The notes under the pieces were generated by a model. That model was given only the letters and a program-made list of their open reading frames with translations, did no database searches and was not told the origin of the DNA. The position numbers and the translations under genes are program-made. From the NCBI GenBank assembly GCA_947631565.1, contig CANRLV010000006.1, positions 1 through 62,387 of the forward strand: DNA of 62,387 bases. Direction: 5' to 3'. Shown in pieces: positions 39,390 to 58,889 of this stretch; position 1 is the first letter of the stretch, and each line of letters opens with the position of its first letter. Source of the DNA: an uncultured Gemmiger sp. (GTDB taxonomy: Bacteria > Bacillota > Clostridia > Oscillospirales > Ruminococcaceae).

Positions 39390-39476
39390 GGGAGTGTCTT
39401 GCGCAGGGCGGGCAAGCGCGGGCGGGGCCAAGCCCCGCGCCCCAACGCTTGCCGACGCCCTTTGCGCGGCACTCCC
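39390..39476. other. very large GC-rich hairpin near attR
   Basis: An 87-base imperfect palindrome. Outer arms are GGGAGTG/CACTCCC, and inner arms include GGCAAGCG/CGCTTGCC and GGGGC/GCCCC. It shares ACGCTTGCCG with the hairpin at 38651. It could be a single-strand origin or a packaging/processing signal of the element. Confidence 0.5.
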
Positions 39477-39561
39477 CTGCTATATGCGTTGCGTGTATTC
39501 TTTGTAAGTCATACTTTTTGGGAATCGGGGTATACCAGTGGAGCCGACCGGGGTCGATTTG

Positions 39562-39604
39562 CTTTTAATCAGGGTGTCCGGGGTTCGAATCCCCGCGGGC
39601 GCAT
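39562..39604 (+). repeat. attR (43-bp direct repeat)
   Basis: A copy of the tRNA-Lys 3' part with one mismatch (T at 39577 for C at 36623). It is not a complete tRNA; it is the displaced original 3' end. Confidence 0.88.
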
Positions 39605-43664: not shown

Positions 43665-43702
43665 TTTTCAGTGCTCCTTGCTCTTTGATGGTAAAGTAAA
43701 TC

Positions 43703-43753
43703 ACCGCCAATCAGGCTGCGGCAGCGGTCAAGCTGCACAGCCTGATTGGCGGT
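43703..43753 (-). repeat. hairpin module H, copy 1
   Basis: Perfect 16-bp arms (ACCGCCAATCAGGCTG and complement) with a 19-base loop. It differs from copy 2 at 46895-46945 by a single base. The stop codon of the aldolase/HAD gene lies inside it. Confidence 0.8.
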
Positions 43754-46115
43754 GTTTCTTTATAATGGTAAAATAATGGCAGGTGTTTTCTGCCGTAAAG
43801 CGTTGCCTTACGGCTTTTACAGTTTGCTTACAGTACCCCCCCCCGGATTGGGCGAGTTTCATCTTCTGTCCCTGAATAGACTTCTCAATTATTCCTTTCA
43901 GGTCGTCGACCGTTGCCGCTGTAAAGTCTGCCAGCCTTTCGACCCCTTCATCGCCGTACCACAAAGTAAGCACAGAGCTGCAGCCTGCGCGCTTTGCGCT
44001 GATGATATCATACAGCCCGTCACCGATCACCATACAATTGTCCGGCGACGCACCTTCACCCATAGCTTCGATTGCTTTAAGCACAGGAATCGGCGACGGC
44101 TTCGGCTCGCTCACATCATCCGAACAAACAACGGCGTCAAACAAGGACTCGATACCAAAATACTTCAATATATCAATGGTCCGATAATGGTCCTTTCCCG
44201 TACAAATTGCGCATTTGATCCCCAGCGGCTTGAGCTCCCGAATCAAATCGACCGCCTCGTCGTTGAGAATGATTTTCTCAATCGCGTTTACGCTGATCCT
44301 TCTATACGGCTCCGCCATTGCAGCCGGCAGGCCCATCTTTTTGAATATGTTCGGCAAGGAATCGCCGGTATACTTCATATATTCAGAGAAAGGCGGGCAT
44401 TTATCATCTCCAACGATTTCCTGATAGCTTCCATAGTATGCACTTTTTTGGACTTCAATAGAATCTATCAAAACTCCGTCGAAATCAAAAATCAAATTGC
44501 TGATTTTCCTTGTCATACCAATCACCTCCTCTTGTTCTTCGGATCTGCCATAGAGCGAATCGGTTATAAACCGTATGTCAAATCGTTCCTGTTTTTCCTT
44601 TATATATTTTCTGAAAGCCTTGTTGCGGTTCTCGACTTGTTCTGGTGACAGAGCTCTTTTCAATGTATCTTCGTAATAGTTTTTATTCGGGTCGACTGCA
44701 AAGCCATCAAACCCGGTAAGGAGTATTTTCTTTGCGCCAAGTTCCGTCAACAGATTTATGATCATGTATCCGCTGGAATCGCGGGTCTCTTCATCAATCG
44801 TGATCCATTTATAGTAATCAATGATGTATGTCTGTGCCTTTACTGTTCTTGCGAGACTTGCGGGAACGATCACCTTTTTTTGTGCCGCCAATGCAGCTTC
44901 GTAGCTCTCTTTTCTGGTCACAAGTTCAAAGTCTGCATCAAAAGCGCTGTTATTCAAACTGACGGTCACATCCGCGGTTTGAATAGCCGCCCTCACCTTT
45001 TCTTTTTGCCTGCTGATACTTTTCCCCGGTGCGATGACACAGACCGTTTTCCCAGTAAAAGCATCCCGAAGGATCGAGACCGTATCGGTATCGTCAAAAG
45101 GCTCTCCGCCATTGAAATCCCGGTATTTCTCCTCGGCATACGCCTTGTTGAACGATATCCTTTTTTCTCCTTCCAGCTTGCCAAGCAGTTCATTCAGTCT
45201 TTCGACCGGCAGCATATGTTTATTGTAATAATAATTCGCATAAATTGGAGAACAATCGTTGAGGGCCGACAAATAGTACTCAACTGAATATCCCCATGGA
45301 TACTGGTTCTTTATCAGGCTGATAACGGTATCCATCACGTTCAAAAGCGGCGGTATCACATATTGGCCATGATAGTACTGGTTCAGGTGAGAAAGTATCA
45401 GCTCCGTATTCAGGTTCCCCGCACCCCGGCCCATACCCATGATAGAAGAATCCAACATTTTATCTCGGTTTGTTGGGATCTGTAAAAAGATTATCGCGTT
45501 GGCATAGGCCATCTGGATATTGTTGTGCGAGTGGAAACCAAGCGCGATATCCGGCCGCAGACGCTGATCAAAAAAACAAGTAAGCCTTTCGATATCCGGC
45601 TGCTGCATCTGCCCGAACGTATCTACAAAATAGAAACCTTTTATTTTCGTTTTATTCGCAGCATCGGCCAATTCTTCAAGTTCCTGCTGCGTATAATGCA
45701 GCGTGACCATCGGCTGCATATAGACATCGTATCCCTTTGCCGAAATAGCATCATACAGCGGCATCGCGTCGCGAAAATTGCGCTTATGGAATGCCAGCCG
45801 GATGGCATCAACACTGCCCCTTGTACGCTCGTGCAGGGCATCAACGTCGAATTTTCCATAGTCCATCATCACAAGATATGTAACGCCGGGTTTTTTCTCT
45901 TTGAGAAAAAAGCGTTCAATGACAGTCTCATTGCAATACTGCGTGCGGCCTTGTTCTGTTCCCGTATTTTTTTCCAGATATCCCAACTCGATATGCTTTA
46001 TCCCGGACGCTTCCACAGCGGAAAGGATGCTGCGCATATTTCTTTGCCCAAAGTTAAAATCATTTACGATCCCCCCATCCCGAAGCGTAACATCCAGTAT
46101 GCTGATTTTTCCCAT
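43728..46115 (-). CDS. three-domain fusion: HMGL-like aldolase, DUF115-like domain, HAD phosphatase
   Basis: A 795-residue protein. The aldolase barrel spans about 1-300 (LDVTLRDGGIVNDF, IALGFHSHNNIQMA, MGMGRGAGN). A middle domain (about 350-520; VCVIAPGKSISRQ, KKILLTGFDGF) resembles DUF115-type regions seen behind such aldolases. A HAD phosphatase follows (about 535-755; LIFDFDGVLIDS, VIGDGLYDI). A G9 tract then encodes GGG and leads into a 35-residue basic tail ending in QSGCAA. ATG 46115 follows AAAGGAG; earlier in-frame codons lack support. The start was moved 7 codons inward. Confidence 0.72.
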   Translation of the reverse strand: MGKISILDVTLRDGGIVNDFNFGQRNMRSILSAVEASGIKHIELGYLEKNTGTEQGRTQYCNETVIERFFLKEKKPGVTYLVMMDYGKFDVDALHERTRGSVDAIRLAFHKRNFRDAMPLYDAISAKGYDVYMQPMVTLHYTQQELEELADAANKTKIKGFYFVDTFGQMQQPDIERLTCFFDQRLRPDIALGFHSHNNIQMAYANAIIFLQIPTNRDKMLDSSIMGMGRGAGNLNTELILSHLNQYYHGQYVIPPLLNVMDTVISLIKNQYPWGYSVEYYLSALNDCSPIYANYYYNKHMLPVERLNELLGKLEGEKRISFNKAYAEEKYRDFNGGEPFDDTDTVSILRDAFTGKTVCVIAPGKSISRQKEKVRAAIQTADVTVSLNNSAFDADFELVTRKESYEAALAAQKKVIVPASLARTVKAQTYIIDYYKWITIDEETRDSSGYMIINLLTELGAKKILLTGFDGFAVDPNKNYYEDTLKRALSPEQVENRNKAFRKYIKEKQERFDIRFITDSLYGRSEEQEEVIGMTRKISNLIFDFDGVLIDSIEVQKSAYYGSYQEIVGDDKCPPFSEYMKYTGDSLPNIFKKMGLPAAMAEPYRRISVNAIEKIILNDEAVDLIRELKPLGIKCAICTGKDHYRTIDILKYFGIESLFDAVVCSDDVSEPKPSPIPVLKAIEAMGEGASPDNCMVIGDGLYDIISAKRAGCSSVLTLWYGDEGVERLADFTAATVDDLKGIIEKSIQGQKMKLAQSGGGYCKQTVKAVRQRFTAENTCHYFTIIKKHRQSGCAA
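43836..43844 (-). repeat. G9 tract at the 3' end of the aldolase/HAD gene
   Basis: Nine G on the coding strand. The present length continues into a 35-codon tail. A length of 8 or 10 would end translation within a few codons at TAA. Confidence 0.85.
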
Positions 46116-46165
46116 GTCGCTCTCCTTTAACTGCAATTTATCTGTATGTCATTTTTTCGGATCTG

Positions 46166-46816
46166 TCATATATCACAGTCGATATTGATCAATTTCTCCG
46201 CCAACTCAAAATCGGCAGGCTCATCGATATCTACTGCCTCTTTAAAAGATACACACTTTATGTAAGGGTTCTCCCCTATCCTTCTGTGATGCAATTTAAA
46301 AACATCTTTTTTAAAAACGTATATTCCTGAAGTCTCCTGGTATATGGGCTCCAAATCCTGTGTTCGGGGCAAGTTCTCCGGTGTGAAGTTCAGCGGCCTG
46401 CCGTTTTGCCAAAGGAAGGTTTGTATCTTCCTTGCACAGAATGCGGAATCGTATTTACCGCTTTGGACCGCGTTGATACATTCCGTCATTGTCTGCGTCT
46501 TTATAAAGGGAGCGGTTGCGTGTGCCATGATGTATATGTCCGCATCTTTCTCTTGCAAAAAGGCATCAAAGAACTGCGTAAAATTTGAAGTCGGCAAATC
46601 AAGATATTCCGGCCGTTTCAGGAAAAAAGCACCCTTTGGAATATACGGGATAACGTCCTCGGAACTGCAATATACATAAATCTCGTCTGCCAAACCGGTC
46701 TCCAGAAGGGTATCCAATTCATATTGCAGTAATGGTTTCCCGGCCAAGCATCTTGTGTTTTTTCCCGGACAACGCTCATTATGGAGCTTAATGGGCATCA
46801 TAGCTATCGTTTTCAT
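46166..46816 (-). CDS. CMP-sugar (acylneuraminate-type) cytidylyltransferase, copy B
   Basis: A 216-residue paralog of copy A (MKTIAMMPIKLHNERCPGKN). It shares with A the motifs MAHATAPF, LPRTQDLEPIYQETSG and VDIDEPADFELAE. AAGGAG lies 8 bases before ATG 46816; an upstream GTG frame overlapping the hairpin module has no site. It is AT-rich compared with the two genes before it. No G-tract is present at its end. Confidence 0.8.
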   Translation of the reverse strand: MKTIAMMPIKLHNERCPGKNTRCLAGKPLLQYELDTLLETGLADEIYVYCSSEDVIPYIPKGAFFLKRPEYLDLPTSNFTQFFDAFLQEKDADIYIMAHATAPFIKTQTMTECINAVQSGKYDSAFCARKIQTFLWQNGRPLNFTPENLPRTQDLEPIYQETSGIYVFKKDVFKLHHRRIGENPYIKCVSFKEAVDIDEPADFELAEKLINIDCDI

Positions 46817-46894
46817 AGTTTTTCTCCTTGTGCATCGGAGGAGCACCGGCGTTCTTTCTGGAACCGCTTTTATGCCCCTTTCAGACAAAGAAAC

Positions 46895-46945
46895 ACCGCC
46901 AATCAGCCTGCGGCAGCGGTCAAGCTGCACAGCCTGATTGGCGGT
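46895..46945 (-). repeat. hairpin module H, copy 2
   Basis: The same 51-base hairpin as at 43703-43753 with one changed base, giving one mismatch in the stem. The stop codon of cytidylyltransferase copy C lies inside it. Confidence 0.8.
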
Positions 46946-47663
46946 ACTTCTTTTTGATTGCAGAATATTGTAAGGTCCGCGCGTTCGTAAAGCGTTGCTT
47001 TACAGCTTGCTTCCAGCACCCCCCCCCGATGTAGGCGGCGATGCGCAGATCTTCCTCGGTGTTGATGTCTACGGCTTCATACTTATCCACAATGTGGATG
47101 TACGGCCGCCGGCCGATACGGCAACGGTAGCGCAGCAGAGACTCCCGGCTGATGCCGTAGAGCCCCGTCGTCTCCTCGATGACCGGCAGCATATCCTGGC
47201 TGCGCGGCAAAATGCCCGGGCGGTAGTTGACCGGGTTGTCCGCCAGCCAGTAAAAACCGTGGTTCTCGGTGGCCGTAAAGCAGGAGTCGTATTCCTCGCT
47301 CGTCAGCAGCGTGTTACAGCAGGCCTGGATGCTCGCCGGCTTCAAGTAGGGCGCCGTGGCGAACAGCTGGAAGTAATAGTCATACTGCGGGAACAGCTCG
47401 CCGTGGTAGACCAGCAGGTCGTTGCCGTTGGCGGTATTACGGGCCAGCTCGGGCTTGCGCTCAATGACCAAAAAGCCCTGCTCTTTGGCGTAGGCCATGA
47501 TCTCGGGGCTGTTGGTGTCGATGTAGACATCGTCAAAGACGTCCGCCTCTTTGACGTGCTCACAGATATACTCATAGAGCTTCTTGCCGTTGAGGATGCG
47601 GAAGTTCTTGCCCGGCACACGCTCGGAGTTTGCCTTGATGGGGATAAAGCAGGCGGTCTTCAT
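46920..47663 (-). CDS. CMP-sugar (acylneuraminate-type) cytidylyltransferase, copy C
   Basis: A 247-residue enzyme of which about 213 residues are the catalytic domain (MKTACFIPIKANSERVPGKN, LFATAPYLKPAS, LPRSQDMLPVIEETTG, VDINTEEDLRIA). A G9 tract then gives GGG and a tail of about 33 residues ending QSGCAA that is clearly related to the tail of the aldolase/HAD protein. It is GC-richer than copies B and E. Its ATG at 47663 lies 80 bases past the present stop of copy D, with no convincing Shine-Dalgarno site of its own. Confidence 0.78.
   Translation of the reverse strand: MKTACFIPIKANSERVPGKNFRILNGKKLYEYICEHVKEADVFDDVYIDTNSPEIMAYAKEQGFLVIERKPELARNTANGNDLLVYHGELFPQYDYYFQLFATAPYLKPASIQACCNTLLTSEEYDSCFTATENHGFYWLADNPVNYRPGILPRSQDMLPVIEETTGLYGISRESLLRYRCRIGRRPYIHIVDKYEAVDINTEEDLRIAAYIGGGCWKQAVKQRFTNARTLQYSAIKKKYRQSGCAA
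47019..47027 (-). repeat. G9 tract at the 3' end of cytidylyltransferase C
   Basis: Nine G on the coding strand. The present length gives the QSGCAA tail. One shifted frame stops after about six codons; the other runs about 40 codons and stops within the hairpin module. Confidence 0.85.
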
Positions 47664-47770
47664 GCTGCCACCGCCTTTCCGGCGGCAGCACGGCGGGCCG
47701 CAAAGGGCACAGACCTGGCTGCCGGCAGGGCCGGCGTCCAAATCAGGTACTGCTTCCAGAACCCCCCCCC
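47664..47770 (-). repeat. junction module J, copy 1 (D to C)
   Basis: A G9 tract followed by a conserved CTGGAAGCA, a GC-rich stretch and a hairpin-forming CCGCC...GGCGG just before the next ATG. It is homologous to the module at 48499-48603. Here one reading frame is open from gene D into gene C. Confidence 0.75.
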
Positions 47771-48498
47771 GTGGGTAAATCAAAGTCAGTGTAGTTTTCT
47801 TTGATCCACTCGCGCGCTATATAGAGGTCGATCGCCTTGTGGATGTCAATCGATTCGCCAATCTCGTAATAGGCGATTTTGTTGCCCATAAAGGCCCACG
47901 GCTGCTGGCCGTCGGACGGATCCGCCAGCAGATGCGCTACATTCAGCACCCAGAAATTGTGCGACAGGAAATAGCACGGCGGCAGATCCTGCCGGTTGGT
48001 GGACACCTGGCCGGTGATGCCCTTCTCGTACATTTGCAGGTGCCTGGCACCATCCACTGTTTTTGCGCGCAGCGGATGGTGGTCATTGTCTTCATACACC
48101 GGCACCACGGCCGTCAGCGTAGGGTCATCCAGCATACGCCGCACGCAGTCGTCGATCCATTCCGATTTGATGGTAACGTTGTTTGCCAGCGTCACCACCA
48201 GAATATCGGGCAGGTCGTTTTCCGCCTGCATGACACCCAGTGCATGCAGGATGCAGTCTATATGCTGGCTGGTGGGAGCCGCCAGCTCCGCCGGGCGGCG
48301 AATTGGACGATGGTCAAGCTTTTCCGCTTCCTGCAAAATTTTGTCGTCATCGCTGCTGCAGAAAAGCTTGTCCACTGTCTGCGCGTGGCGGGCAGCATTG
48401 GCCGGATAATACAGGACCGGATGGCCCAGGCAATCCAGTATGTTTTTGTCTTTCAGCGTGTTGTTGCCGCGGCCGGTCAACAAAGCATAGACCTTCAT
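47743..48498 (-). CDS. cytidylyltransferase-like protein (NeuA/KdsB superfamily), copy D
   Basis: A 251-residue, more divergent member. It starts MKVYALLTGRGNNTLKDKN, keeps LVVTLANNVTIKSEW and ends near SIDIHKAIDLYIAREWIKENY. The G9 tract at its 3' end now yields GGGSGSST and a stop. Its ATG overlaps the stop of copy E (ATGA), so it is translated by coupling in the present phase. The sugar specificity is unknown. Confidence 0.75.
   Translation of the reverse strand: MKVYALLTGRGNNTLKDKNILDCLGHPVLYYPANAARHAQTVDKLFCSSDDDKILQEAEKLDHRPIRRPAELAAPTSQHIDCILHALGVMQAENDLPDILVVTLANNVTIKSEWIDDCVRRMLDDPTLTAVVPVYEDNDHHPLRAKTVDGARHLQMYEKGITGQVSTNRQDLPPCYFLSHNFWVLNVAHLLADPSDGQQPWAFMGNKIAYYEIGESIDIHKAIDLYIAREWIKENYTDFDLPTGGGSGSST
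47762..47770 (-). repeat. G9 tract at the D/C junction
   Basis: Nine G now lead to a stop 80 bases before gene C. Eight would fuse D in frame to C. Ten would end D at a TGA overlapping the ATG of C. Confidence 0.9.
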
Positions 48499-49256
48499 GC
48501 TGCCACCGCCTTTCCGGCGGCGGCACGGCGGGCCGCAAGGGTCACGAACCTGACCGCCGGCAGTGCCGGCAGCTCAATCAGGTATGCTTCCAGCACCCCC
48601 CCCGTTCTCAGATAGACAAATTCTGCAAAATCAAAATCGATTTGGTTATCAATATCCGTGGCTTCTGTCTCATCAATAAGATAAATATTGGGCTTTACGC
48701 CTACAACATTTTTATTTTCGATCATCGTTCGGCGTTCCAAAATGTTGATTGCAAAATTCAGTGCAGCTATGTCCGGCAGGTCCTGGCTGCGGGGCTGGTG
48801 CCGTAAATCATAGTTGATGGGCAGATTGTCCCGAAACAGGAACTCCTTGATCAGATGGGCTGAATTCAAGGAATCATATTTTCCCTTTTGCGCATAATAC
48901 GCTTCTATAGCGGCAATGATCGTTTCATCACGGAGCAAAGGATTCGTTACATTTATGTATGCGATATCGTCTGCGTCCATCTGCTCGGCCATATTGCGGT
49001 ATACATCGCTCATGGAGACGGTATTGGACGCATAATAGGCGTCACGCTTAACCGTCTCGCAACCCATTTTACTGGCAATCGAAAGCATCGTATCGTCGTT
49101 GGAGTTTACGACGATGCCATCAAAATATGGTATACGCTTCAGCTGGGCAAGCTTGACCTCCAACAGCGTGCTGCCGGCAAATGGCCGGATGTTTTTATTG
49201 GCCACCCGCACAGATCCGGATCGGACTGCCACCAGCGCTTTGATACTCATACTCAT
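48495..49256 (-). CDS. CMP-sugar (acylneuraminate-type) cytidylyltransferase, copy E
   Basis: The protein has 253 residues. The catalytic domain runs from SIKALVAVRSGSVRVANKN to TDIDNQIDFDFAEFVYL (about 218 residues). The G8 tract and a 34-residue Ala-rich tail ending GKAVAA follow. The first ATG overlaps the wzx stop (ATGA); the second, at 49250, has AAAGGAG at better spacing, so either may be used. In the present phase the tail stop overlaps the ATG of copy D. Confidence 0.78.
   Translation of the reverse strand: MSMSIKALVAVRSGSVRVANKNIRPFAGSTLLEVKLAQLKRIPYFDGIVVNSNDDTMLSIASKMGCETVKRDAYYASNTVSMSDVYRNMAEQMDADDIAYINVTNPLLRDETIIAAIEAYYAQKGKYDSLNSAHLIKEFLFRDNLPINYDLRHQPRSQDLPDIAALNFAINILERRTMIENKNVVGVKPNIYLIDETEATDIDNQIDFDFAEFVYLRTGGVLEAYLIELPALPAVRFVTLAARRAAAGKAVAA
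48499..48603 (-). repeat. junction module J, copy 2 (E to D)
   Basis: A G8 tract, CTGGAAGCA, a GC-rich stretch and a CCGCC/GGCGG hairpin before the next ATG, as in copy 1. Here a TGA blocks the fusion frame. Confidence 0.75.
48596..48603 (-). repeat. G8 tract at the E/D junction
   Basis: The present length reads through to the ATGA overlap with gene D. Lengths of 9 or 10 stop at TGA within about 7 codons, leaving D uncoupled by roughly 75 bases. Confidence 0.9.
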
Positions 49257-50689
49257 CTCTCCTTTATCATCTTGTACTTTTCTATGATCTGCCTGCGCTT
49301 TATCACGCAGACCGCCAATACGATCACGATCAGCAAATACCGAATGGTCGGGTAATCATAAATCGCCATCATGCCAAAAGCAGCAAGCACAAGGGCTACC
49401 GACAAGAGGCAAATTGCTTTTGCGTCATACACCTGATCGCCGTCTATGTGCTTTTTGCAGACCTTTCGCATAAAAGCGTAGTGCGAAAGGCTGAATAGGA
49501 TATAACAGAACAGCGTCGTATATCCTGCTGCAAAGTAACCAAAAATCTGCATGAAAATATAATTGAGAATGATATTGGCGATCGCTCCGATCATTGAGGC
49601 TGTGGTGATAAATTTATTCTCCTCAAAGAAAAATTCTATATTGCCAAACATTGAATATAAAAATGTAAAATATGCGCTTAGGCTGATCACCGGTACCAGA
49701 TAAATCGCCTCAAAATAGTCATCGGTCGCAAAGATCTTAAACAGTTCTGGTGCGATCGCTGAAAATACCAAGCTCATACCACCGACCATAAGAAGCAGAA
49801 AAATCGTTATTTGTTTCAGCTCCTTATAGTCTCTTTTGCCCAACTTTTCGTATGTGTATGGAATGATGGCACTGTTGATCGCGTTTGTGACGATGTTCAT
49901 CGCCATTGAGATATTGTATGTAAAGCTGTAAATCCCCGCTTCAGCGTCGCCGATATAGCGCCGTATCATGACCCGGTCAGCCTGTCCCAAAATCATCCCG
50001 GACAGATAGTGCGGGATAAGCGGCAGATTGAAAGACAGCGCGAATTTCCAAAATTCGCCGTTATAAAAGCATTTTCCCTTTGCATAGTTATAAATCATGA
50101 ACAAGGCGCCAAAGCATATCTGTACCGCGCCGCCGCTGTAGAGTACCGCCCGCAAACGCTGCTCCTGCGCACAGACGCGCGCACTCACGATCGGTACGAT
50201 CGTGCTCATGATTGCAAACAGCACCGTGAAGGCAAGAAGGTTTATATAGCGATACTCATATCTCTGGCGTCCCGACCAAAGAAGATAACTCTGCGTAAAA
50301 AGGATCTGCAGGAACATCAACACTACCAGGTCGGACTCCATACCCATAAGGTCGTTCCAAAAACCTGTGGACATTACATACACGGCAAAGCATACGATCG
50401 TAGCTGTTGTCGAAAGCCCTTGCGATGCCGACATATAGCTGTCTCGCCTGTCAGGGTATTTGAACATGGCGCTGTTATATACACCTGCGGCCAGATTCAG
50501 CGTGGCAAATATGGTAATGAGCGATGTCCACGATAAGAAAACGCTGTAAATACCGTATTGTTCAGTCGTGAGCAACCGCACCAAAAACGGTATGACCAGA
50601 AACTTGGCCCCGCTCTGCACCGCCTGGCAGACCATAAACCAGAACGCAGCCTTGGCTTGGATGGGGATGGTGCTATACCGAAACTTCAA
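49253..50689 (-). CDS. wzx: Wzx-type polysaccharide flippase (MATE/MOP superfamily)
   Basis: A 478-residue protein with about 12-14 membrane segments and the flippase N-terminus (GAKFLVIPFLVRLLTTEQYGIY). It should flip lipid-linked repeat units across the membrane. The start is a TTG at 50689 with GGGGGA upstream at 8 bases; no ATG fits. It lies 15 bases after the glycosyltransferase gene and overlaps the next gene. Confidence 0.82.
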   Translation of the reverse strand: MKFRYSTIPIQAKAAFWFMVCQAVQSGAKFLVIPFLVRLLTTEQYGIYSVFLSWTSLITIFATLNLAAGVYNSAMFKYPDRRDSYMSASQGLSTTATIVCFAVYVMSTGFWNDLMGMESDLVVLMFLQILFTQSYLLWSGRQRYEYRYINLLAFTVLFAIMSTIVPIVSARVCAQEQRLRAVLYSGGAVQICFGALFMIYNYAKGKCFYNGEFWKFALSFNLPLIPHYLSGMILGQADRVMIRRYIGDAEAGIYSFTYNISMAMNIVTNAINSAIIPYTYEKLGKRDYKELKQITIFLLLMVGGMSLVFSAIAPELFKIFATDDYFEAIYLVPVISLSAYFTFLYSMFGNIEFFFEENKFITTASMIGAIANIILNYIFMQIFGYFAAGYTTLFCYILFSLSHYAFMRKVCKKHIDGDQVYDAKAICLLSVALVLAAFGMMAIYDYPTIRYLLIVIVLAVCVIKRRQIIEKYKMIKER

Positions 50690-50704
50690 CTCATATCCCC
50701 CGCT

Positions 50705-51799
50705 TCAAAGCAAAGCCAGCAGCTCATCCATGCTGTTGGGAGTATAAAATTCGCGGTTCCCAAATTCCTGACGAAAACTTTCTGCATATTTCACATAATT
50801 TTCTGCCTCTGCAACGTTTGGAGCAACGCCTGTTATTTTATAAAGCATGATCGTAGGGATGTCCATATCAAAATACAAGCGCGATGAAAAAGCGACGCTT
50901 GACGAGATCGTCAAAATCACTTTATCCGTAAAGTCATTGGTCAGCAGGAAAGCCTCCCACGGAATGCCTGTGCTTTTGCTGACCTTGATGCCTTGATCGG
51001 AAAACCTGTCTTTATTTCGCCGCGGATGCAGTTTAACGACGATATTCTCCTTACCGACCTTTTCCGCGATTTTCATAATCAGTGAAAAATCGTCTATTGA
51101 ATCATCAAAAATATTGTCTTCAAAGAAAATATATTTTGCATCCAGATCCGTTTTGGAAGTATCCCCAAAGGCAGCTTGAATAAAGCTTCGGTATGCCGCA
51201 TTCTGCGGATCTATTCTAGGGATTTGATAAGTACTGTAACGGGTTTTGATTTGTAAAAGGCCAGGATAGAATAAATAATACCCTTTAAATTTATCAAGTA
51301 TTCTGGGGCGCCTTCTGATGGCAAGTATCATATCTGCTAATCCATAACATATGGAACGCAAGCTGCATTTCTCAAATATATTATTCTGCCCCAAATAAGG
51401 GCTTGGGCCCTCATCAAAGAAGTAAATATTAATCCTTTGTTTTGTATTCAAATAACTCCAAATCAAATAAACATACGTTTGACATCCCACATTTAATATT
51501 TGATCATACGAGTTATCGTGTACAATCTCTCGCTTAAGTTTTTCGTCATATTTTCCAAATGCAGCCATAACAAGGCTTTTGATTTTATCTTTTCGAGTTC
51601 TCGAATCGGAAGCAACAAAATAAATATTGCTGAAATATTTTAGGTCTTTGATTTTTAAATAGGCATCCCTAAGGCCTGCAGAAGTTTCCTCCAGAATGAT
51701 AAGGTCAACATCGCCGTCATTCAGCACAGTTTCTTTAAGGTGCGCAGCGACCATAAGCTGAAAAAGCTGCGAGACAATGATGAGATATCTTTTTTTCAT
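50705..51799 (-). CDS. GT52/polysialyltransferase-like glycosyltransferase (probable CMP-sugar user)
   Basis: A 364-residue protein resembling the bacterial sialyltransferase GT52 group. Landmarks are YLIIVSQLFQLMVAAHL at the start, YFFDEGPSPYL, FFEDNIFDDS, VVKLHPRRNKDRF and ISSSVAFSSRLYF. Such enzymes use CMP-activated sugar acids, which fits the synthetase genes downstream. The start at 51799 has GGAG upstream; the frame extends 28 codons further without support. Confidence 0.65.
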   Translation of the reverse strand: MKKRYLIIVSQLFQLMVAAHLKETVLNDGDVDLIILEETSAGLRDAYLKIKDLKYFSNIYFVASDSRTRKDKIKSLVMAAFGKYDEKLKREIVHDNSYDQILNVGCQTYVYLIWSYLNTKQRINIYFFDEGPSPYLGQNNIFEKCSLRSICYGLADMILAIRRRPRILDKFKGYYLFYPGLLQIKTRYSTYQIPRIDPQNAAYRSFIQAAFGDTSKTDLDAKYIFFEDNIFDDSIDDFSLIMKIAEKVGKENIVVKLHPRRNKDRFSDQGIKVSKSTGIPWEAFLLTNDFTDKVILTISSSVAFSSRLYFDMDIPTIMLYKITGVAPNVAEAENYVKYAESFRQEFGNREFYTPNSMDELLALL

Positions 51800-51931
51800 C
51801 GGTTTCACTCCTCTATTTACAAAATCTCTGAAAGACAGCGGTGTTGCGGAGATAATCGGTCGAGCATCCACAGCGCTTTTCATCTCTTGAAAATATCTCC
51901 TTTTCCGCTTTTGGCCCGCGCCGTGCCCCGG

Positions 51932-53278
51932 TCACGCCCTGCGGCGGCGGCTGATAAGGCGCAGTCTTACCCGTCTGGAAACAAGGATCACGGCCCCAAG
52001 AAACAACAAATCTACATATGTGGTCATAGCCAAACCTGAATTGGTGAAAAAAGAACACATCCCTTCAACGATCCACAAAATCAAATACTCGTTTCCTTTA
52101 TGGTGGACATGATCCTTTTTCAAAAATATTTCGTTGAACATTTTTTCAGCATATCCGTATCCCCAGCCTGCGATGAGCGCCGCCAGCGCCACGCCCGGGA
52201 ACCCGAAATTCAGATATCCCTCCATCCCCAAGCCGCCGCGCAGCCCAAAATGGTTTGACATATTAAAAAGACGCATCGTAGTAACTCGTCCAAAACTCCA
52301 ATTTCTTCTGAACGCAGACAGGCCGGAGGGAATAAAGGAAATGAGCCCCGCCAGATATGTTTTGCCCCAGAAAAACTGCCCCGGAAATTTGTTGTGCATT
52401 CCCATTAAAATAAATGCACCGTCGCGCAGATCGGAAAAAGTATTCCCGTTCAGGAGCTCGTTTATCAAAAGCTCTACGGTAATGTCATTTACGCCGACGC
52501 GGTAAAAGGCCAACGCCAGACCGACAACGGTCACCGCCCCGATGAGAACAATGATATGATAGAAAGACCGTCTTTTTGCTTTGCCGGAAATGACTGTCTT
52601 TTGTTTTGTGATTTGTTTTTGGTAGAAATAGATGATCATCGTAGGGACAATAACGGTCAGGAGAGCGTTCGAGCGAGATCCGGTAAACAACAAGGTCATA
52701 ATGGCAACGATCAGCTTGACATGATCCGAGTGGTTGAAAACCATTCGCATCCCAAAATAAATCGCGCAGATCGTTATCACATCGGTCAAGGCCTGATAAA
52801 CAGGAGAGATGGCTGTATTATAAAAGAAACCTCGCCCTTGATTAAACAATGGGATTCCGCCGTTGAACGTATAAACAACAACATACCACAACACGATGAC
52901 AAGCCAAAAAAGCAATGTCATCACACCCGGATCGATTTTTGCGGACAAGGTATAGACAATGCTCCTTTCCAGCTTTACACGCTTTTTCCCCAGTTCAACA
53001 GCCATCATCATAAAAATCTCGAAAATCAACGCAATCGAATTAATAACGATCGCTTTGTCGAGGTATTCTCGCATCGACGCTATATTTGTGATCCCTAAAG
53101 CCCGCCACGGGGTAGGGTCATTATAAAACCGGGGACTGATCAGGTATACGAATATCTGCATCAGAATTGTAATCATAAAAGGAGAAAAAATATACTTTCT
53201 CATTTTGAATTTTGTGATAAAGTAAAATCCGCTCGTCCCTATCGCGGCCACATAGAAAATGCCTGCCAAAAAACTCAT
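51932..53278 (-). CDS. wzy: Wzy-type polysaccharide polymerase
   Basis: A 448-residue integral membrane protein with about ten to twelve segments and a large extracytoplasmic loop (about 260-350). The layout matches O-antigen/capsule polymerases of the EpsG/O-antigen ligase type; sequence conservation in this family is low, so the call relies on topology and place. AAAGGAG precedes the ATG. Confidence 0.7.
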   Translation of the reverse strand: MSFLAGIFYVAAIGTSGFYFITKFKMRKYIFSPFMITILMQIFVYLISPRFYNDPTPWRALGITNIASMREYLDKAIVINSIALIFEIFMMMAVELGKKRVKLERSIVYTLSAKIDPGVMTLLFWLVIVLWYVVVYTFNGGIPLFNQGRGFFYNTAISPVYQALTDVITICAIYFGMRMVFNHSDHVKLIVAIMTLLFTGSRSNALLTVIVPTMIIYFYQKQITKQKTVISGKAKRRSFYHIIVLIGAVTVVGLALAFYRVGVNDITVELLINELLNGNTFSDLRDGAFILMGMHNKFPGQFFWGKTYLAGLISFIPSGLSAFRRNWSFGRVTTMRLFNMSNHFGLRGGLGMEGYLNFGFPGVALAALIAGWGYGYAEKMFNEIFLKKDHVHHKGNEYLILWIVEGMCSFFTNSGLAMTTYVDLLFLGAVILVSRRVRLRLISRRRRA

Positions 53279-53321
53279 ATATCAACTTTTCTCCTTTATA
53301 TTTTGCCCCTTTTGACCCTTT

Positions 53322-54362
53322 TTACAGGCTATTCAGAACGGCCAGCAGTTCTCTTGCCGATTTTTCCCAGCTGTATTTTTTCAGGATGCCATCCCCCGCT
53401 GCTTCGGATATTTCACTGAGCCGGGTCAGGTCCGCATGACCGTCATAGGGATCGATATAATTCACTGAATCGCCGAACATTTCGTGCATGACCGGAATAT
53501 CGGATACAACAAGGCAGCGTGCGCCCGCCGAAAGCGCTTCCAGGGGCGTCAGGCCAAACCCTTCATAGAAAGAGGGGAACAGGAAAGCTTTACATTCGCG
53601 CATCAGGGTCTTGGCTTCTGCATCGCTGACATACCCCAAAAAGCGCATATTGGACGGGGGCTCCGTTTCCAATATACTTGAAAAGACTTTTTCGTTGATA
53701 GACCCTGCAATCGCAAATTGGTATTCTGGGTACTGCCTGGCAGTCTGTGCGATCCACGTAAAGTTTTTATCGGGATCAAGGCTGCCCAAAGCAAAGTAGA
53801 AGTTTCCGCTTGATAATTGATATTTGCTTACAGCGTTTTCATCATAGCCGATCCTTGCATAATGCTCCCAACAGCTTGGAACAACACGGATTTGTCTTTT
53901 TAGTTTCCCATAATACTTTTCTATCTCATTTTTCGAAAACTCGGAAACGGTGATCAACTGATATGCTCTGCGTGCTGCGTTTGAAAAGAGAATACGGTAC
54001 CACAAGGTAAACAATGCACTGAAATATTGGGGACACGCCCTTATCTTTACATCATGGATACATATGACTCCGGGGACGGCCAAGGGACTGGCGTTGCACA
54101 AATTCAAGGGGATCCTGCCATGCCGCAGCGCATAGATCGGAAAGCTGATTTGTTCCCACAACACTCCCTGGAGATGTCCGATCCTTTTGATTTGGATATT
54201 CTGATACTGCGGGATATCCTTCACATTTGGCGGAACAGCGATTTCCAGCTGTCCCGGTTGTGTAAGCTTGTCCAACGCACCCACGATCTCAAGGGCATAT
54301 CGCTGCACACCGGTGATCCGCTGCGATAAAAATTTGCCGTTGATGACATAGCTTTTCTGCAT
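53322..54362 (-). CDS. GT4-family glycosyltransferase
   Basis: A 346-residue GT-B enzyme. N-terminal GKFLSQRITGVQRYALEIV is typical of mannosyltransferase-like GT4 members. The donor-site pattern is in FYFALGSLDPDKNF, FLFPSFYEGFGLTPLEALSAG and the E-x7-E block. Donor and acceptor are unknown. It starts immediately after the stop of the preceding gene. Confidence 0.82.
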   Translation of the reverse strand: MQKSYVINGKFLSQRITGVQRYALEIVGALDKLTQPGQLEIAVPPNVKDIPQYQNIQIKRIGHLQGVLWEQISFPIYALRHGRIPLNLCNASPLAVPGVICIHDVKIRACPQYFSALFTLWYRILFSNAARRAYQLITVSEFSKNEIEKYYGKLKRQIRVVPSCWEHYARIGYDENAVSKYQLSSGNFYFALGSLDPDKNFTWIAQTARQYPEYQFAIAGSINEKVFSSILETEPPSNMRFLGYVSDAEAKTLMRECKAFLFPSFYEGFGLTPLEALSAGARCLVVSDIPVMHEMFGDSVNYIDPYDGHADLTRLSEISEAAGDGILKKYSWEKSARELLAVLNSL

Positions 54363-55550
54363 TTAACAGTACCCCTTGGCCATCAGAGCATCTTCATCAG
54401 TTTCTGAAATCAATTCCCGGATGTTTTTTTGGAACTGCTCCGTTGTAAAGTTCTCCAGCACACGCTGGCGGGCGTTCTTACCGTATTGCTCCCGCAGTGC
54501 CGGGTCATCCGCCAGCTTTTGCAGGGCCTCGGCGTAGGCCTTGCTGTCTCTGTTGGGGCACTCGATACCCGTTACGCCGTCAAGATTGACGAAATTCACT
54601 CCACTGCCGGGGATGGTGAAAGTGACGGCCGGTTTGCCAAAATACATAGCCTCCGCCAGTGCGATGCCAAACGCCTCGTTTTTTGTGACAGACGAAAAGC
54701 AGAAAATATCGCATGCCTGATAATAGGCGATCGCCTCTTTATCGCTTATGCGCCCTGGCAAAACAACTTTTTCATCATTTGCTGCCTGCTGCTTCAGTTC
54801 CTCGGTCAACGGTCCCTGCCCGCCGATAACGATTCGGAACCTGTCATCCAAATATTTGGCTGCTTCGATCAGATACTCATATCCTTTATAATGTACATGC
54901 CGGCCCAAGGCAAAGCAGAGGATTTTTCCCTCGTACCGTTTGCGGATATCATCCGCGATCTTTGTTGTTTGTTCGGTGATTTTTATCCGTTCAGTGCTAA
55001 TGCAGTTATATACGACATGACATTTCGATCGGAACAGCTGCAGATACCGGCTTCCGTCTATATACTGTGCCGAGGTAGGAGCCACAACATCTGCACGCTG
55101 CAAAAGCGACAGGTTCTGTCCGTGGAACATCTTCCCCAGTATCTTCTGCCTTGTGATATCCAAATGCCAATATACGATAAGTTTAAATTTTTGCTTTTTA
55201 TGTGCCAGCAAAAACGCCGCCATATAAGGGTTGGGATAATGGAAAATCACGATATCCGGGTCAAATTCCTTCATGAGGCGATGCAGCTCAAACGGATACG
55301 ATGGCGACAGCAGCTGTGAAGCGACCTGACAGATGGACCCGCACCGAATGATCTCCACGCCGTCGATCCAATCCCGGACAGACTGGCTGCGCTTGCGCAC
55401 CATGTCGCCGTCCGATCCTTCATCCCCCAGGCAGATGACCTTTTGCTCAATATCGTCCATACCGTTCAAGGCGTGGACGATATCTCGGCTCACCTGCTCA
55501 ATGCCGCCGATATGGGGATAATAGGCCCGCGTAATTTGAAGTATGCGCAT
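54363..55550 (-). CDS. GT4-family glycosyltransferase
   Basis: A 395-residue GT-B enzyme (ITRAYYPHIGGIEQVSRDIV). It has LCFALGRHVHYKGYEYLIEA for the donor domain start and FGIALAEAMYFGKPAVTF for the E-x7-E region. Its place after the heptose genes makes a heptosyl or related transfer possible, but that is inference. It is one of two adjacent GT4 genes. Confidence 0.85.
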   Translation of the reverse strand: MRILQITRAYYPHIGGIEQVSRDIVHALNGMDDIEQKVICLGDEGSDGDMVRKRSQSVRDWIDGVEIIRCGSICQVASQLLSPSYPFELHRLMKEFDPDIVIFHYPNPYMAAFLLAHKKQKFKLIVYWHLDITRQKILGKMFHGQNLSLLQRADVVAPTSAQYIDGSRYLQLFRSKCHVVYNCISTERIKITEQTTKIADDIRKRYEGKILCFALGRHVHYKGYEYLIEAAKYLDDRFRIVIGGQGPLTEELKQQAANDEKVVLPGRISDKEAIAYYQACDIFCFSSVTKNEAFGIALAEAMYFGKPAVTFTIPGSGVNFVNLDGVTGIECPNRDSKAYAEALQKLADDPALREQYGKNARQRVLENFTTEQFQKNIRELISETDEDALMAKGYC

Positions 55551-55628
55551 TTCATACTGCCTCCACTGCTATATGGTCACTTTTGCCATTTGAAGCGATG
55601 CAGCCTCTGCTGCCAACGATCACAGCCT

Positions 55629-56291
55629 TCAGGGCTTTGTCCATGTCTCTGCAAAGAACCGTTCTTCCAGCATCAAACACAGGCAGTGATACACCGGCAG
55701 ATGCAGCTCCTGGATCATAAAGGTCTCGGTCGCCGGCGCCTTGATGCACACGTCTGCCATGGCGGACAGCTTGCTGTCCTTCTGGCCGGTCAGGCCGATG
55801 ACCGGCATCCCCTTGGCCCTGGCCACCGTGGCCGCGTACAGCACGTTCTTGCTGTTGCCGCTGGTCGAGATGCCCAGGAACACATCCCCCGCCCTGCCGT
55901 AGCCGTTCACCTGCTGCGCAAAGCAAAGCAGCGGCTCGCAGTCGTTCATGTAGGCGGTGGAAAGCGCCGGATGCCCGTCCAGCGCGATGGCCGGCAGCGC
56001 GCCCTGCAGGTTCTCGGCCAGCACCGGGCCCAGCTCCGGGTGGGCCGCCTTCAGCCTTGCGGCGTACTCTGCGCCCGGCTTGCGCGGCTTGACAAAGCCC
56101 TTCATCAGCTCGCCGACGATGTGCTCGGCGTCCGCCGCGCTGCCGCCGTTGCCGGCGATCAGCAGCTTGCCGCCGTTTTCATAACAGGCAGCGAGCACCT
56201 CATACGCCCTTTGGATGTCTGCCCGGCACACGGCCAGCGCCGGATACCTCTCCGTCAACTGGTCCAGACGGGCTTCTACATTCGGCTCCAT
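55629..56291 (-). CDS. gmhA: sedoheptulose-7-phosphate isomerase GmhA
   Basis: A 220-residue SIS-domain enzyme with GKLLIAGNGGSAADAEHIVGE, GISTSGNSKNVL and an ETFMIQELHLPVYH C-terminal block. It converts sedoheptulose-7-P to D-glycero-D-manno-heptose-7-P, the first step of the heptose pathway. Its start overlaps the preceding gene by 16 bases. Confidence 0.92.
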   Translation of the reverse strand: MEPNVEARLDQLTERYPALAVCRADIQRAYEVLAACYENGGKLLIAGNGGSAADAEHIVGELMKGFVKPRKPGAEYAARLKAAHPELGPVLAENLQGALPAIALDGHPALSTAYMNDCEPLLCFAQQVNGYGRAGDVFLGISTSGNSKNVLYAATVARAKGMPVIGLTGQKDSKLSAMADVCIKAPATETFMIQELHLPVYHCLCLMLEERFFAETWTKP

Positions 56292-57544
56292 GCCTCTTCC
56301 TCCCCGATCTTTGCAACGGCCTGTGCCAGGCTGTCAATGCCGTCCTCGCCGATGCGCACACACCGGCAGCCGGCCGCCTGCCCGGCCCGTATATCGTTCT
56401 CGCCGTCGCCGACCATCCAGGACTGCTTTAAGTCGATGTTCAGGTCCTGCGCCGCCCGCAGCAGCATCCCCGGCTTGGGCTTGCGGCAGTCACAGTCGAT
56501 CTTGAGCTCCGGCACCTCGCCGGCAAAGCCCTTGTCCGGGTGGTGGGGGCAGTAGTAGATGGCATCCAGATACGCGCCCTGTTCCCCGAGCAGCGTCTCC
56601 ATCTTGTTGTGGATCTCATCCAGCTGCGCGCGCGTGACCTCGCCGCGGGCGATGACCGGCTGGTTGGTCACAACGATGGCCAGATGCCCGGCCCGGTTTA
56701 TCTCGCGTATCGCCTCGGCCGCGCCGGGCAGCAGCTCAAAATCGTCAATGTCCCGCAAAAAGCCGACGTAGCGGTTGATGGTCCCGTCGCGGTCCAGAAA
56801 GACCGCCTTTTGCTTGCGCCGCAGGTTGCGGGCCTCTATCCTGCCTTCCCGGCAGTCCCGGCTGACCTGCTCATACCGTTCCGGCGTGCCCATATCCTTG
56901 ACGTATTCCGGACTGTCGTAGCAGAACAGCTTGCCCGTGCCGGCCAGCGGTTTGAGCAGCTGCCGGTCCAGGTCGACCTTGGGGGTATCCGGGCGGTGCT
57001 CCAGCAATCTGGGCGATAGGATATGCAGCCCGGCGTTGACACGGTTCTTGTAGTACCGGGGGCGCTCATCCTCCTTGGCCAACCATTGCTGCACCGCGCC
57101 GTTCCCGTCGGCAACGATAAGACCGCTGTCATAGGGGTGGTCGTTGGGGTGGGTGAACAGCGTGGCCAACCCGCCGCGGCGGCGGTGGAACGCGACAAAA
57201 CGCCCGAAATCAATGTCGAACAGTGAATCGGCGTTGAGCAGCAGGAAATCCTCGCTCAGTTTGTCTTTCAGCTCAAACAGCGCCCCAGCGTTGCCCAGGG
57301 GCTGCTGTTCTATGTAATATTGGAGCTGCACGCCGAAGCGCTCCCCGCCCCCGAAATAGTCGATGATCTTGTCCGCCATATGGCTGACGGTCAAAATGAT
57401 ATCGGTAAAGCCCTGCTCGCGCAGGCAGGTGAGCTCGCGCTCCAACACCGGCACGCCCGCCAGCGGGATCATCGGCTTGGGGATATCGCTTGCCAGCGAT
57501 GCGATGCGCGTCCCGCGCCCGCCGGCCATGATGACGGTCTTCAT
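56276..57544 (-). CDS. fusion of heptose-1-P guanylyltransferase (HddC) and heptose-bisphosphatase (GmhB)
   Basis: A 422-residue bifunctional protein. Residues 1-235 form a nucleotidyltransferase (IMAGGRGTRIASL, KPMIPLAG, LLLNADSLFDID). Residues 247-422 form a GmhB-type HAD phosphatase (FLDRDGTINRYVG), with the zinc ligands in YYCPHHPD and IDCDCRKPKPGML and the motif VGDGENDIRAG. It would remove the 7-phosphate and then make GDP-heptose. In characterised pathways these are separate proteins. Confidence 0.88.
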   Translation of the reverse strand: MKTVIMAGGRGTRIASLASDIPKPMIPLAGVPVLERELTCLREQGFTDIILTVSHMADKIIDYFGGGERFGVQLQYYIEQQPLGNAGALFELKDKLSEDFLLLNADSLFDIDFGRFVAFHRRRGGLATLFTHPNDHPYDSGLIVADGNGAVQQWLAKEDERPRYYKNRVNAGLHILSPRLLEHRPDTPKVDLDRQLLKPLAGTGKLFCYDSPEYVKDMGTPERYEQVSRDCREGRIEARNLRRKQKAVFLDRDGTINRYVGFLRDIDDFELLPGAAEAIREINRAGHLAIVVTNQPVIARGEVTRAQLDEIHNKMETLLGEQGAYLDAIYYCPHHPDKGFAGEVPELKIDCDCRKPKPGMLLRAAQDLNIDLKQSWMVGDGENDIRAGQAAGCRCVRIGEDGIDSLAQAVAKIGEEEAWSRM

Positions 57545-57568
57545 GCTTACATGACCTTCTTTTGCCGG

Positions 57569-58570
57569 TCAGGTGCGCGGCTCATAGCTTTCCGGTGTAT
57601 AGTGGATGACCCGTGTACCGCCGTTCTCAAACGCGAAGGGAATGTACATCAGGTCCTGCATCGCTTCGTGCACGGCGGCCTGCTTTTCCGGCGGCACATA
57701 GAAGATCAGGAACCCGCCGCCGCCGGCGCCCAGCAGCTTGCCGCCCAAGGCGCCGGCCGCGATGCCCTTTTCATACAAGGCATCGATGCTGTCGGTCGAG
57801 ATGGCGGCACCGGTCTGACGCTTTAAGCGCCACGTCCGGTCCAGCAGGCGGCCGAACTCGTCCAAATCAGAATAAGCGTCTGTGAGGACGGCTTCCGCTT
57901 CATCGACCAGCGCCAGCATCGCCTTGAGCCGGGCGGTCTTGTCCTGACTGCCCGCCGCGTTGGCCTTCTGCACATCGGAGGAAAAGCGCGTGAAGCCGGT
58001 GAAGAACATGAGCAGGTTGTCATTGAGCTGCTGCTTGCGCGCCGGCGAGATGATGACCGGCCGTACCTCAAACCCGTTGGGGCCGAAATCGATGCGGTTG
58101 AACCCGCCGTACGCCGCCGCGATCTGGTCCTGCCAGCCGCCGGCCTCCGCGCACAATGTGCGCTCCAGATAAATGGCCTCCTCGGCCAAACGCTTTTTGT
58201 CGGCATATTTGCCCTTGAGCGCATAGAAAGCGTTGAGCAGGCCCACCGCGAAGGAGCTGCTGGTACCCAGCCCGGAACGGGCCGGCAGGTCGGCCTCATA
58301 GTTGATGCGCAGCTCATGCATATCCAGCATCTTCATCGCGTTGCGCACGGCCGGATGCTGGATATCGTCAACGCTCGTCACGCGCTCGGTCCTGGAATAC
58401 ACGACCTCGGTGCTGAAGTCAAAAAAACGCGGCAGGTGGCGGACATTCACATAGCAGTATTTATCAAATGTCGTGGAGAGCACCGCGCCGCCATGCTCGC
58501 GAAAAAAGCTCTCCATATCCGTCCCGCCGCCGAAAAACGACATACGGAAAGGCGTTTTTGTGATGACCAT
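57569..58570 (-). CDS. hddA: D-glycero-D-manno-heptose 7-phosphate kinase HddA
   Basis: A 333-residue GHMP kinase with PFRMSFFGGGTDM at the start, the ATP loop ARSGLGTSSSFAVG and the C-terminal GGKLLGAGGGGFL. It adds the 1-phosphate in the GDP-heptose route. It is the first structural gene of the operon, 44 bases past the stop of the leader frame. Confidence 0.9.
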   Translation of the reverse strand: MVITKTPFRMSFFGGGTDMESFFREHGGAVLSTTFDKYCYVNVRHLPRFFDFSTEVVYSRTERVTSVDDIQHPAVRNAMKMLDMHELRINYEADLPARSGLGTSSSFAVGLLNAFYALKGKYADKKRLAEEAIYLERTLCAEAGGWQDQIAAAYGGFNRIDFGPNGFEVRPVIISPARKQQLNDNLLMFFTGFTRFSSDVQKANAAGSQDKTARLKAMLALVDEAEAVLTDAYSDLDEFGRLLDRTWRLKRQTGAAISTDSIDALYEKGIAAGALGGKLLGAGGGGFLIFYVPPEKQAAVHEAMQDLMYIPFAFENGGTRVIHYTPESYEPRT

Positions 58571-58613
58571 CCTTTTTCAACCACTTTCCCAAAAATCTCA
58601 GGCAAAAAGCCCT

Positions 58614-58889
58614 CTAAAGGCGCTCATATTCCGGTTCCGCACCGGGTGCACATGGTATCGGCATCAGCATCCCCTGGCGCCCGCTGCGCCTTCCCGCTGC
58701 TGCCGGCCAGCATTCCCGGGCCGCCGCGCAGACAACACAGCAAGGGACAAGCCGGCACAGCCTGTCCCCACAAGGGCGGTCTTTAAGTTGCTTCCTTTCG
58801 TAGTCTCCTTTTGAACCAATCTTCTCTTTCCCTTCTGAAATCCTTCCAGCCTGCCAGAAGAGAATTACCCCCCCCCCGGAGGATGTCAT
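58614..58889 (-). CDS. leader frame with a G10 tract upstream of hddA
   Basis: In the present phase a 91-codon frame runs from ATG 58889 (or a GTG at 58958) through the G10 tract (MTSSGGGVILF) to a TAG 44 bases before hddA. The composition (Cys/Arg/Pro-rich) does not look like a folded protein. No good Shine-Dalgarno site is seen, so its role would be translational or transcriptional control rather than a product. Confidence 0.4.
   Translation of the reverse strand: MTSSGGGVILFWQAGRISEGKEKIGSKGDYERKQLKDRPCGDRLCRLVPCCVVCAAARECWPAAAGRRSGRQGMLMPIPCAPGAEPEYERL
58868..58877 (-). repeat. G10 tract in the operon leader
   Basis: Ten G on the transcribed strand, about 100 bases downstream of the predicted transcription start. 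In the other two frames the tract is followed by TAA immediately or after about 28 codons. Confidence 0.85.

Follow-up and report, generated by a model that had tools for sequence, protein, structure and literature searches.

Candidate phase-variable G tracts at gene junctions of a surface-polysaccharide operon in an uncultured Gemmiger species

Background

Among the systems described so far, three repeat-based arrangements are related to the one considered here, and what follows refers to the available parts of the respective reports. In the pil1 and pil3 loci of Streptococcus gallolyticus, a GCAGA repeat slips within the open reading frame (ORF) of a leader peptide, and with out-of-frame lengths translation ends within a terminator hairpin or beyond it, which raises transcription of the downstream genes (PMC3894217). 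In the sortase-pilus G tract of Bifidobacterium breve, one of the phases joins two ORFs and lifts effects on the downstream genes (PMC9187656). Helicobacter canadensis carries homopolymers at the 3' ends of genes, with two proteins made separately or as one, an arrangement interpreted as a change of the C-terminus (PMC2823697). The present work concerns five tracts of eight to ten G residues (T1-T5) in a surface-polysaccharide operon of an uncultured Gemmiger sp., located in a stretch of 62387 nucleotides (nt) of genomic DNA (GenBank assembly GCA_947631565.1, contig CANRLV010000006.1), hereafter referred to as the window.

The five tracts, taken together, are read here as slippage-prone, phase-variable switches at gene junctions, with a probability of roughly 0.64; confidence is highest for T3 and T4, lower for T1 and T2 and lowest for T5. 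A more specific proposal, held tentatively and at somewhat less than an even chance, is that of a portable switch composed of a G tract, a hairpin around the ribosome-binding site and an ATGA overlap, which would set the downstream gene off or coupled-on, at T3 also fused, leave the upstream gene unharmed, and have reached both the surface-polysaccharide genes of Firmicutes that are only distantly related and a set of phage genes, one of which encodes a tail fibre.

Reading frames and hairpins at the tracts

The tracts are C runs on the forward strand, i.e. G on the coding strand (Table 1). They are uninterrupted and, at G8-G10, long enough for slipped-strand phase variation, and at each of the five sites a change of one unit alters the frame outcome predicted from the sequence. 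The initial annotation had reported these five runs and no further G or C run of eight or more, and both statements hold across the complete window. It had also placed the fifth tract in the operon leader, where T5 indeed lies 297 nt before the ATG of the first gene, and the other four at the 3' ends of sugar-nucleotide genes. Four tracts are found near gene 3' ends, but only three of these genes encode cytidylyltransferases; the host of T1 is an aldolase/HAD-phosphatase fusion and not a nucleotidyltransferase.

At T4, the assembled G8 leads to the TGA of the ATGA at which the next gene starts, and both G7 and G9 lead to stops 75-79 nt before that start. At T3, the assembled G9 stops 79 nt before the next start, G10 gives the ATGA overlap, and G8 gives an in-frame fusion of two enzymes of 525 amino acids (aa). 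Both junctions thus combine a stop/start overlap with a hairpin over the ribosome-binding site, the structural hallmarks of translational coupling, the overlap phase of T3 being G10 and not the assembled G9. The gene carrying T3 is 71% identical to the gene before the tract of locus L080, which belongs to a genome of another family, and the genes that follow are closely similar; the lengths at these orthologous junctions are G9 (OFF) at T3 and G8 (ON) at L080. A cassette boundary or insertion site at T3 and T4 was considered and rejected, the downstream repeat being accounted for by the hairpin and the start.

T1 and T2 are followed by large terminator-like hairpins. At T1, G9 leads to a stop in the loop of the hairpin, while G8 and G10 lead to stops 8-19 nt past the tract; at T2, G9 and G10 enter the hairpin and G8 stops 19 nt past the tract. 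As in a pil1-type attenuator, the repeat lies in a translated ORF and its phase sets whether the stop falls before the hairpin or inside or after it. An 86-nt repeat of the T1 hairpin (43699-43784) is 86% identical to its copy at T2, and a genome-wide repeat was rejected as an explanation, only two copies having been found in the genome, both in this operon. At locus L062, a tract and a hairpin (z -3.8) likewise follow the homologue of the T2 gene.

T5 lies inside a possible short ORF starting with the ATG at 58889, which would have 91 aa with G10, 7 aa with G9 and 35 aa with G11. A role of T5 is possible and no strong claim is made for it. On another contig of the same genome (C111, locus L048), a leader reads CCTCC-G9-TAATTC, much like the CCTCC-G10-TAATTC of T5, and is followed by an 11-pair hairpin.

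The mechanism that we infer would begin with translation of the upstream gene, or elsewhere of a short leader ORF, into the G tract, where the gain or loss of one G would set the frame of the ribosomes leaving it. In the ON phase of T3 and T4, ribosomes would traverse and open the hairpin, terminate at the TGA and re-initiate at the ATG of the coupled gene; in the OFF phase they would stop 75-79 nt earlier, so that the hairpin would stay shut and the next gene off, and in the third frame of T3 the two enzymes would be fused. At T1 and T2, the frame would decide whether ribosomes enter the large hairpin, entry keeping transcription going and early stops permitting termination or polarity. Since the main domain of the upstream enzyme is encoded ahead of the tract, the cell would retain this enzyme and switch the next one, which may produce combinatorial variants of the surface sugars. 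The suggestion of several slippage switches in one surface-polysaccharide operon fits the frames, and also the conserved junction design and the one-G difference between phages described below. The accompanying picture of ordinary homopolymer switches needs revision: the bulk of the host gene is unaffected by a change in a 3'-end tract, and the likeliest target of the switch is the gene that follows; ordinary in-gene on/off switching was rejected for T1-T4, where the phases alter the tail alone.

Recurrence of the junction module

A module was defined as G8-10, a distance of 46-107 nt to the start, a hairpin with the ribosome-binding site of the next gene in its 3' arm, and an overlapping ATGA. 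A scan of the window and of loci L031-L099 gave 63 distinct tracts of at least eight G, of which 24 have a downstream ORF that is not open through the tract. Fourteen of these 24 were retained and, together with T3, constitute the 15 modules, two in the window (T3 and T4) and 13 elsewhere. The tracts dropped include that of L078, where one frame ends at +4 and the other frames are without early stops, the tract at 3521 of L064, whose best frame stops 13 nt short, and eight more with no frame ending at the start.

In all 15 modules, one of the frames that leave the tract has its end at +4 relative to the start (+1 in the two copies of L066). Apart from T3, both remaining frames stop before the start, at least 30 nt before it in 12 of the 14 modules, with L059 (-27) and L082 (-13) as the exceptions. 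Judged by the longest open upstream frame or leader, 11 of the 15 are assembled in the coupled (ON) state and four (T3, L082, L083 and L084) in the OFF state. Most of the downstream genes encode cytidylyltransferases; the others include those of L082, for a 438-aa protein, and L091, for an epimerase-like protein of 303 aa. At loci outside the gene search, these labels were read from the first residues and not from a domain scan.

The hairpin around the ribosome-binding site was examined in an alignment of the 15 module segments, in which 83.7% of the cells pair under a structure folded from these same sequences, and both sides have changed in eight of the nine pairs and in 14 cells; all 500 shuffles fall short on each of the five measures. 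The rows are partly related (T3 and T4; the two L066 copies; L083, L084 and L091). The median z-score of the folds is -2.6 for the 15 modules against +0.19 for 40 ordinary gene starts near an upstream stop, drawn from the window and 13 loci fetched by gene (P = 3.9e-7), and the difference persists with one module per lineage (n = 11; P = 1.8e-5). Pairing of the ribosome-binding region is 0.74 at modules and 0.43 at control starts (P = 7.9e-6).

These observations bear on the alternative that slippage alters the tail, and with it the function, of the upstream enzyme and leaves the next gene unaffected. Such C-terminal phase variation would suit tracts that lie at gene 3' ends with phases changing the tail alone, and the 3'-end tracts of H. 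canadensis have been interpreted in this manner in the available part of the report (PMC2823697); like those, T1-T4 leave the main protein intact in all phases. At L063 and L064, however, the tract lies in a leader ORF whose ATG, with a Shine-Dalgarno match of 7 nt, precedes it by 10-11 codons; tract, hairpin and ATGA are kept, and no long ORF enters the tract. Moreover, the conserved part is the hairpin around the ribosome-binding site of the next gene, and differing upstream sequences precede the same kind of downstream gene. A change of the upstream tail alone is hence held to be unlikely, and switching of the following gene is preferred.

The 13 gene-based loci were obtained by searching the protein of the T2 gene in contigs of GTDB genomes and were fetched without reference to tracts; they comprise 139,752 nt of 31-61% G+C. 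They contain 14 tracts of at least eight G and no such C tract, the seven tract-bearing loci having 36-48% G+C. Over the 13 loci, the 150-nt zone upstream of the homologue of the T2 gene holds five of these tracts, at distances of 48-107 nt, against an expectation of 0.2 (P = 2e-6). One of these five loci is from a Selenomonas ruminantium strain (L069), and most of the others are from metagenome-assembled genomes. In addition, a pattern search matched 16 of 391 genomes, four of which gave kept modules (five loci), and its backwards control matched three of 391 among the matches listed.

Tract numbers and the possibility of chance

The tracts might also be attributed to chance or to the assembly: a G+C-rich genome may contain such G runs anyway, sequencing error may have determined their lengths, and the frames may have been interpreted with hindsight. 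Sixty windows simulated for each Markov order, trained with the tracts masked, gave a mean of 3.25 runs of at least eight per window at order 1, which lends some weight to this explanation, as does the fragmented assembly, and 0.35-1.1 at orders 2-4; the count of five by itself is not remarkable at order 1 and remarkable at orders 2-4. Shorter runs of six or seven in the window are C7 at 32384, C6 at 46071 and G6 at 17378, 41178 and 62238. The genome (2.47 Mb) has 27 G or C tracts of at least eight, five of them within the 15 kb of the operon, where about 0.14 would be expected from the density of the other 22 (Poisson P ~3e-7, a post hoc value, the stretch having been chosen for its tracts). 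It is the placement of the tracts, rather than their number, that is striking. Against chance stand this concentration of five of the 27 tracts in one operon, the same junction placement in loci of 36-48% G+C, including that of S. ruminantium, and the conservation of hairpin and ATGA; the explanation is disfavoured and considered very improbable.

Tracts of G8-G10 are also present inside other genes of the same genome (L034, L037 and L046; contigs C7, C14 and C58). As assembled, genes for an acyltransferase-3 (C14), a GNAT acetyltransferase (C7) and an ATP-grasp-like protein (C58, below the Pfam cut-off) are out of frame, and that for an MBOAT acyltransferase (C7) is in frame; these look like classical in-gene switches. 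In two congener genomes, G022 (contigs C68 and C95) and G027 (C41, C49 and C87), runs of at least nine G lie within about 40 nt of the first base of the contig among the matches listed. It looks as if assemblers broke there, and such ends may hide length variation or be a sequencing artefact.

Phage junctions

The pattern G8T-N(30-55)-GGTGGCNGCATGA matched nine IMG/VR contigs, and its controls none with a C tract and one with the tract after the start. In these contigs (L134-L142), tracts of G8-G11 at the 3' ends of phage ORFs are followed by GGTGGCNGCATGA and the next gene. They stand outside the 15 modules, and their hairpins were folded without control comparison. At the natural tract lengths, a frame entering the tract ends at +4 in eight of the nine (exception L140). 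The ribosome-binding-site motif alone, searched in viral contigs, was found in nine, none of which has a run of six or more G in the 200 nt before the start; the motif by itself therefore implies no tract. PHROGs gave a name to one of nine phage proteins. Phage junction DNA had no match in the phage collection, and a search for relatives of two phage genes found one partial contig beyond those above.

Two of these contigs, L139 (G10) and L141 (G9), are identical in 281 of 282 overlapping columns around the junction, the sole exception being one G, and 95-98% identical across longer pieces. The next gene at this junction matches the tail-fibre family phrog_2712. With G9, the upstream gene ends 30 nt short of the next start; with G10, it passes that start in a different frame and ends after it, by which a fusion to the tail-fibre gene in L139 is ruled out; the third phase would end at ATGA. 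This difference, read from aligned sequences, supports slippage in this layout, and it concerns phage rather than the window. Phage tail proteins are possibly under a G-tract switch.

The pair also bears on the view that the G tracts are not heritable switches but fixed elements of structure, which yield an unchanging mixture of products through RNA structure, ribosome pausing, transcriptional slippage or programmed frameshifting. A run of G could pause ribosomes or polymerase, and the window tracts, taken from a single assembly, are confined to lengths of 8-10. On the other hand, homologous junctions differ in length, the assembled states are mixed (11 ON and 4 OFF of 15) and two phages with identical flanks differ by exactly one G. 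Fixed elements are accordingly judged improbable, and heritable slippage remains the preferred reading.

Evaluation of the proposed switch

Several observations weigh against the proposed slippage switches and are reflected in the probability given above. As to the tracts themselves, the lengths in the window derive from one assembly of one strain, and with 140 contigs and 89% completeness of this assembly they may be assembly errors. MutS is encoded in the genome, and its loss was therefore rejected as a cause. L083 and L084 come from different species of the same genus and have a junction in common, with G10 in the former and G9 in the latter; additional and altered bases adjoin the tract in L084, so that this is not a clean length difference. 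Both L139 and L141 are outside the coupled phase and have no in-frame fusion.

As to the hairpins, those behind T1 and T2 are absent from the terminator-scan list and their U/T runs are imperfect, none being clean; that of T5 is no better than shuffles (z -0.56), and the z-scores are weak at L069, L080 and L082. The structure used for covariation was taken from folds of the 15 aligned sequences, and comparison with the slid controls (at most 72.6% paired) thus favours it. A second hairpin register had no support on the module alignment.

As to recurrence, six of the 13 gene-based loci lack G or C runs of seven or more, and the tract is therefore optional. Five of the 13 outside modules were found by a pattern that demands the tract and GCATGA, and the 15 modules are not independent. 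Model R1 matched seven of 243 genomes of the class, three of them weakly and without runs of six or more G, which makes the module rare, and a further viral pattern with another motif had no match.

Other searches were of limited yield. Model R1 returned its 15 seeds and two weak matches in 20 selected genomes, and the seeds alone in eight genomes of the genus of G333. A T-specific pattern found only its own genome among 150, and the protein of the T3 gene matched, besides its own, three genomes weakly among 35 of the genus. The protein of the T2 gene found its own genome alone among 398 genomes of the phylum at E <= 1e-50, and nothing in viral contigs; the window junction DNA had no match in plasmids.

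Operon organisation and neighbouring features

A Pfam scan of the proteins was used to describe the operon, which reads leftward from 58570. Behind the flippase lies a run of cytidylyltransferases, HMGL-like aldolases, one of them fused to an HAD phosphatase, and a two-part thiamine-diphosphate enzyme (Table 1). The scanned cytidylyltransferases resemble PseF at 52-72 bits, far under its cut-off of 205.7.

Table 1. Tracts, hairpins and genes of the operon in the window
Feature	Position	Strand	Remarks
T5	58868..58877	-	G10; operon leader, inside possible short ORF
Operon front	49253..58570	-	GHMP kinase, NTP-transferase/HAD, SIS isomerase, two glycosyltransferases, protein without Pfam match, polysialyltransferase-like protein, flippase
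Cytidylyltransferase	48495..49256	-	carries T4; PF02348; best NCBIfam PseF, below cut-off
T4	48596..48603	-	G8; 3' end of gene 48495-49256
Hairpin with ribosome-binding site	48502..48524	-	gene starting 48498; -25.1 kcal/mol for the 51-nt segment
Cytidylyltransferase	47743..48498	-	carries T3; homologue upstream of the matching L080 junction
T3	47762..47770	-	G9; 3' end of gene 47743-48498
Hairpin with ribosome-binding site and start	47661..47692	-	gene at 47663; -30.3 kcal/mol for the 51-nt segment
Cytidylyltransferase	46920..47663	-	carries T2; relatives in 13 loci of GTDB genomes
T2	47019..47027	-	G9; 3' end of gene 46920-47663
Large terminator-like hairpin after T2	46880..46960	-	-47.5 kcal/mol, z -8.3
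Cytidylyltransferase	46166..46816	-	downstream of T2 and its hairpin
HMGL-like aldolase fused to HAD phosphatase	43728..46115	-	T1 near 3' end
T1	43836..43844	-	G9; 3' end of aldolase/HAD fusion gene
Large terminator-like hairpin after T1	43690..43770	-	-49.5 kcal/mol, z -11.2
Cytidylyltransferase	42993..43664	-	downstream of T1 and its hairpin
HMGL-like aldolase	41947..42996	-	
Thiamine-diphosphate enzyme	40348..41950	-	two overlapping genes: N part 41420-41950, M/C part 40348-41466

The split enzyme at the end of this run is acetolactate-synthase-like. ORFs of L059 and L065 match its parts in size and overlap, as seen without a domain scan, which suggests that the split is a natural two-subunit form. 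Beyond the operon, the last 43 nt of a tRNA-Lys gene (36576-36650) are repeated (98%) at 39562-39604, and between the repeats lie genes for a phage-type integrase (36705-37598) and a REP_ORF2-G2P replication protein (37615-38415); the interval 36576-39604 is a small integrated element of about 3 kb.

Significance and comparison with known systems

If the proposed reading is true, G-tract phase variation of surface polysaccharides extends to Firmicutes of the gut and rumen, and a mechanism is offered for 3'-end tracts that have so far been taken as tail variation, many of which, known elsewhere, might switch the following gene. From the sequence alone, the layout allows the off and coupled states, and at T3 the fused one, to be predicted. 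A similar layout in phage genes, one of which belongs to a tail-fibre family, suggests that both parties to the contest between phage and surface use a single device; the diversity of bacterial surfaces and that of phage receptor binders may then have the same source.

In the literature searched, no G-tract phase variation of surface polysaccharides was found described for gut or rumen Firmicutes, and no account of translational coupling being switched by a homopolymer by way of a ribosome-binding-site hairpin was recognised, bioRxiv and most subscription papers being outside the scope of the search. The initial annotation knew of no description of this arrangement in Clostridia, and none was found in the consulted literature, but related mechanisms have been published (PMC3894217, PMC9187656, PMC2823697).

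The poly-G tracts of Campylobacter and Neisseria, described in part in PMC6437147, resemble those of the window in length and in their association with surface-glycan genes; unlike them, they lie inside the switched gene and act by truncating its own product. A likeness is also seen in RepG/tlpB of Helicobacter pylori, where a variable G repeat in an mRNA leader affects a polysaccharide gene, which in the available part of the report (PMC8295292) occurs via a small RNA targeting the repeat and not via the reading frame. H. canadensis shares with the window the homopolymers at gene 3' ends, whereas the accessible portion of its description mentions no ribosome-binding-site hairpin or ATGA switch (PMC2823697). 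The G8 fusion phase of T3 resembles the pilus switch of B. breve (PMC9187656), whose tract, however, lies inside the first gene of each pilus cluster, and for which a phase coupled through hairpin and ATGA is not described in the part of the report available. A close functional precedent is that of S. gallolyticus pil1 (PMC3894217), with which, as far as the available part of its description goes, T1 and T2 share the geometry of the attenuator. There the repeat lies in one leader peptide before pilus genes, whereas here G tracts lie at the 3' ends of enzyme genes in a polysaccharide operon, and at T3 and T4 a ribosome-binding-site hairpin and an ATGA take the place of the terminator.

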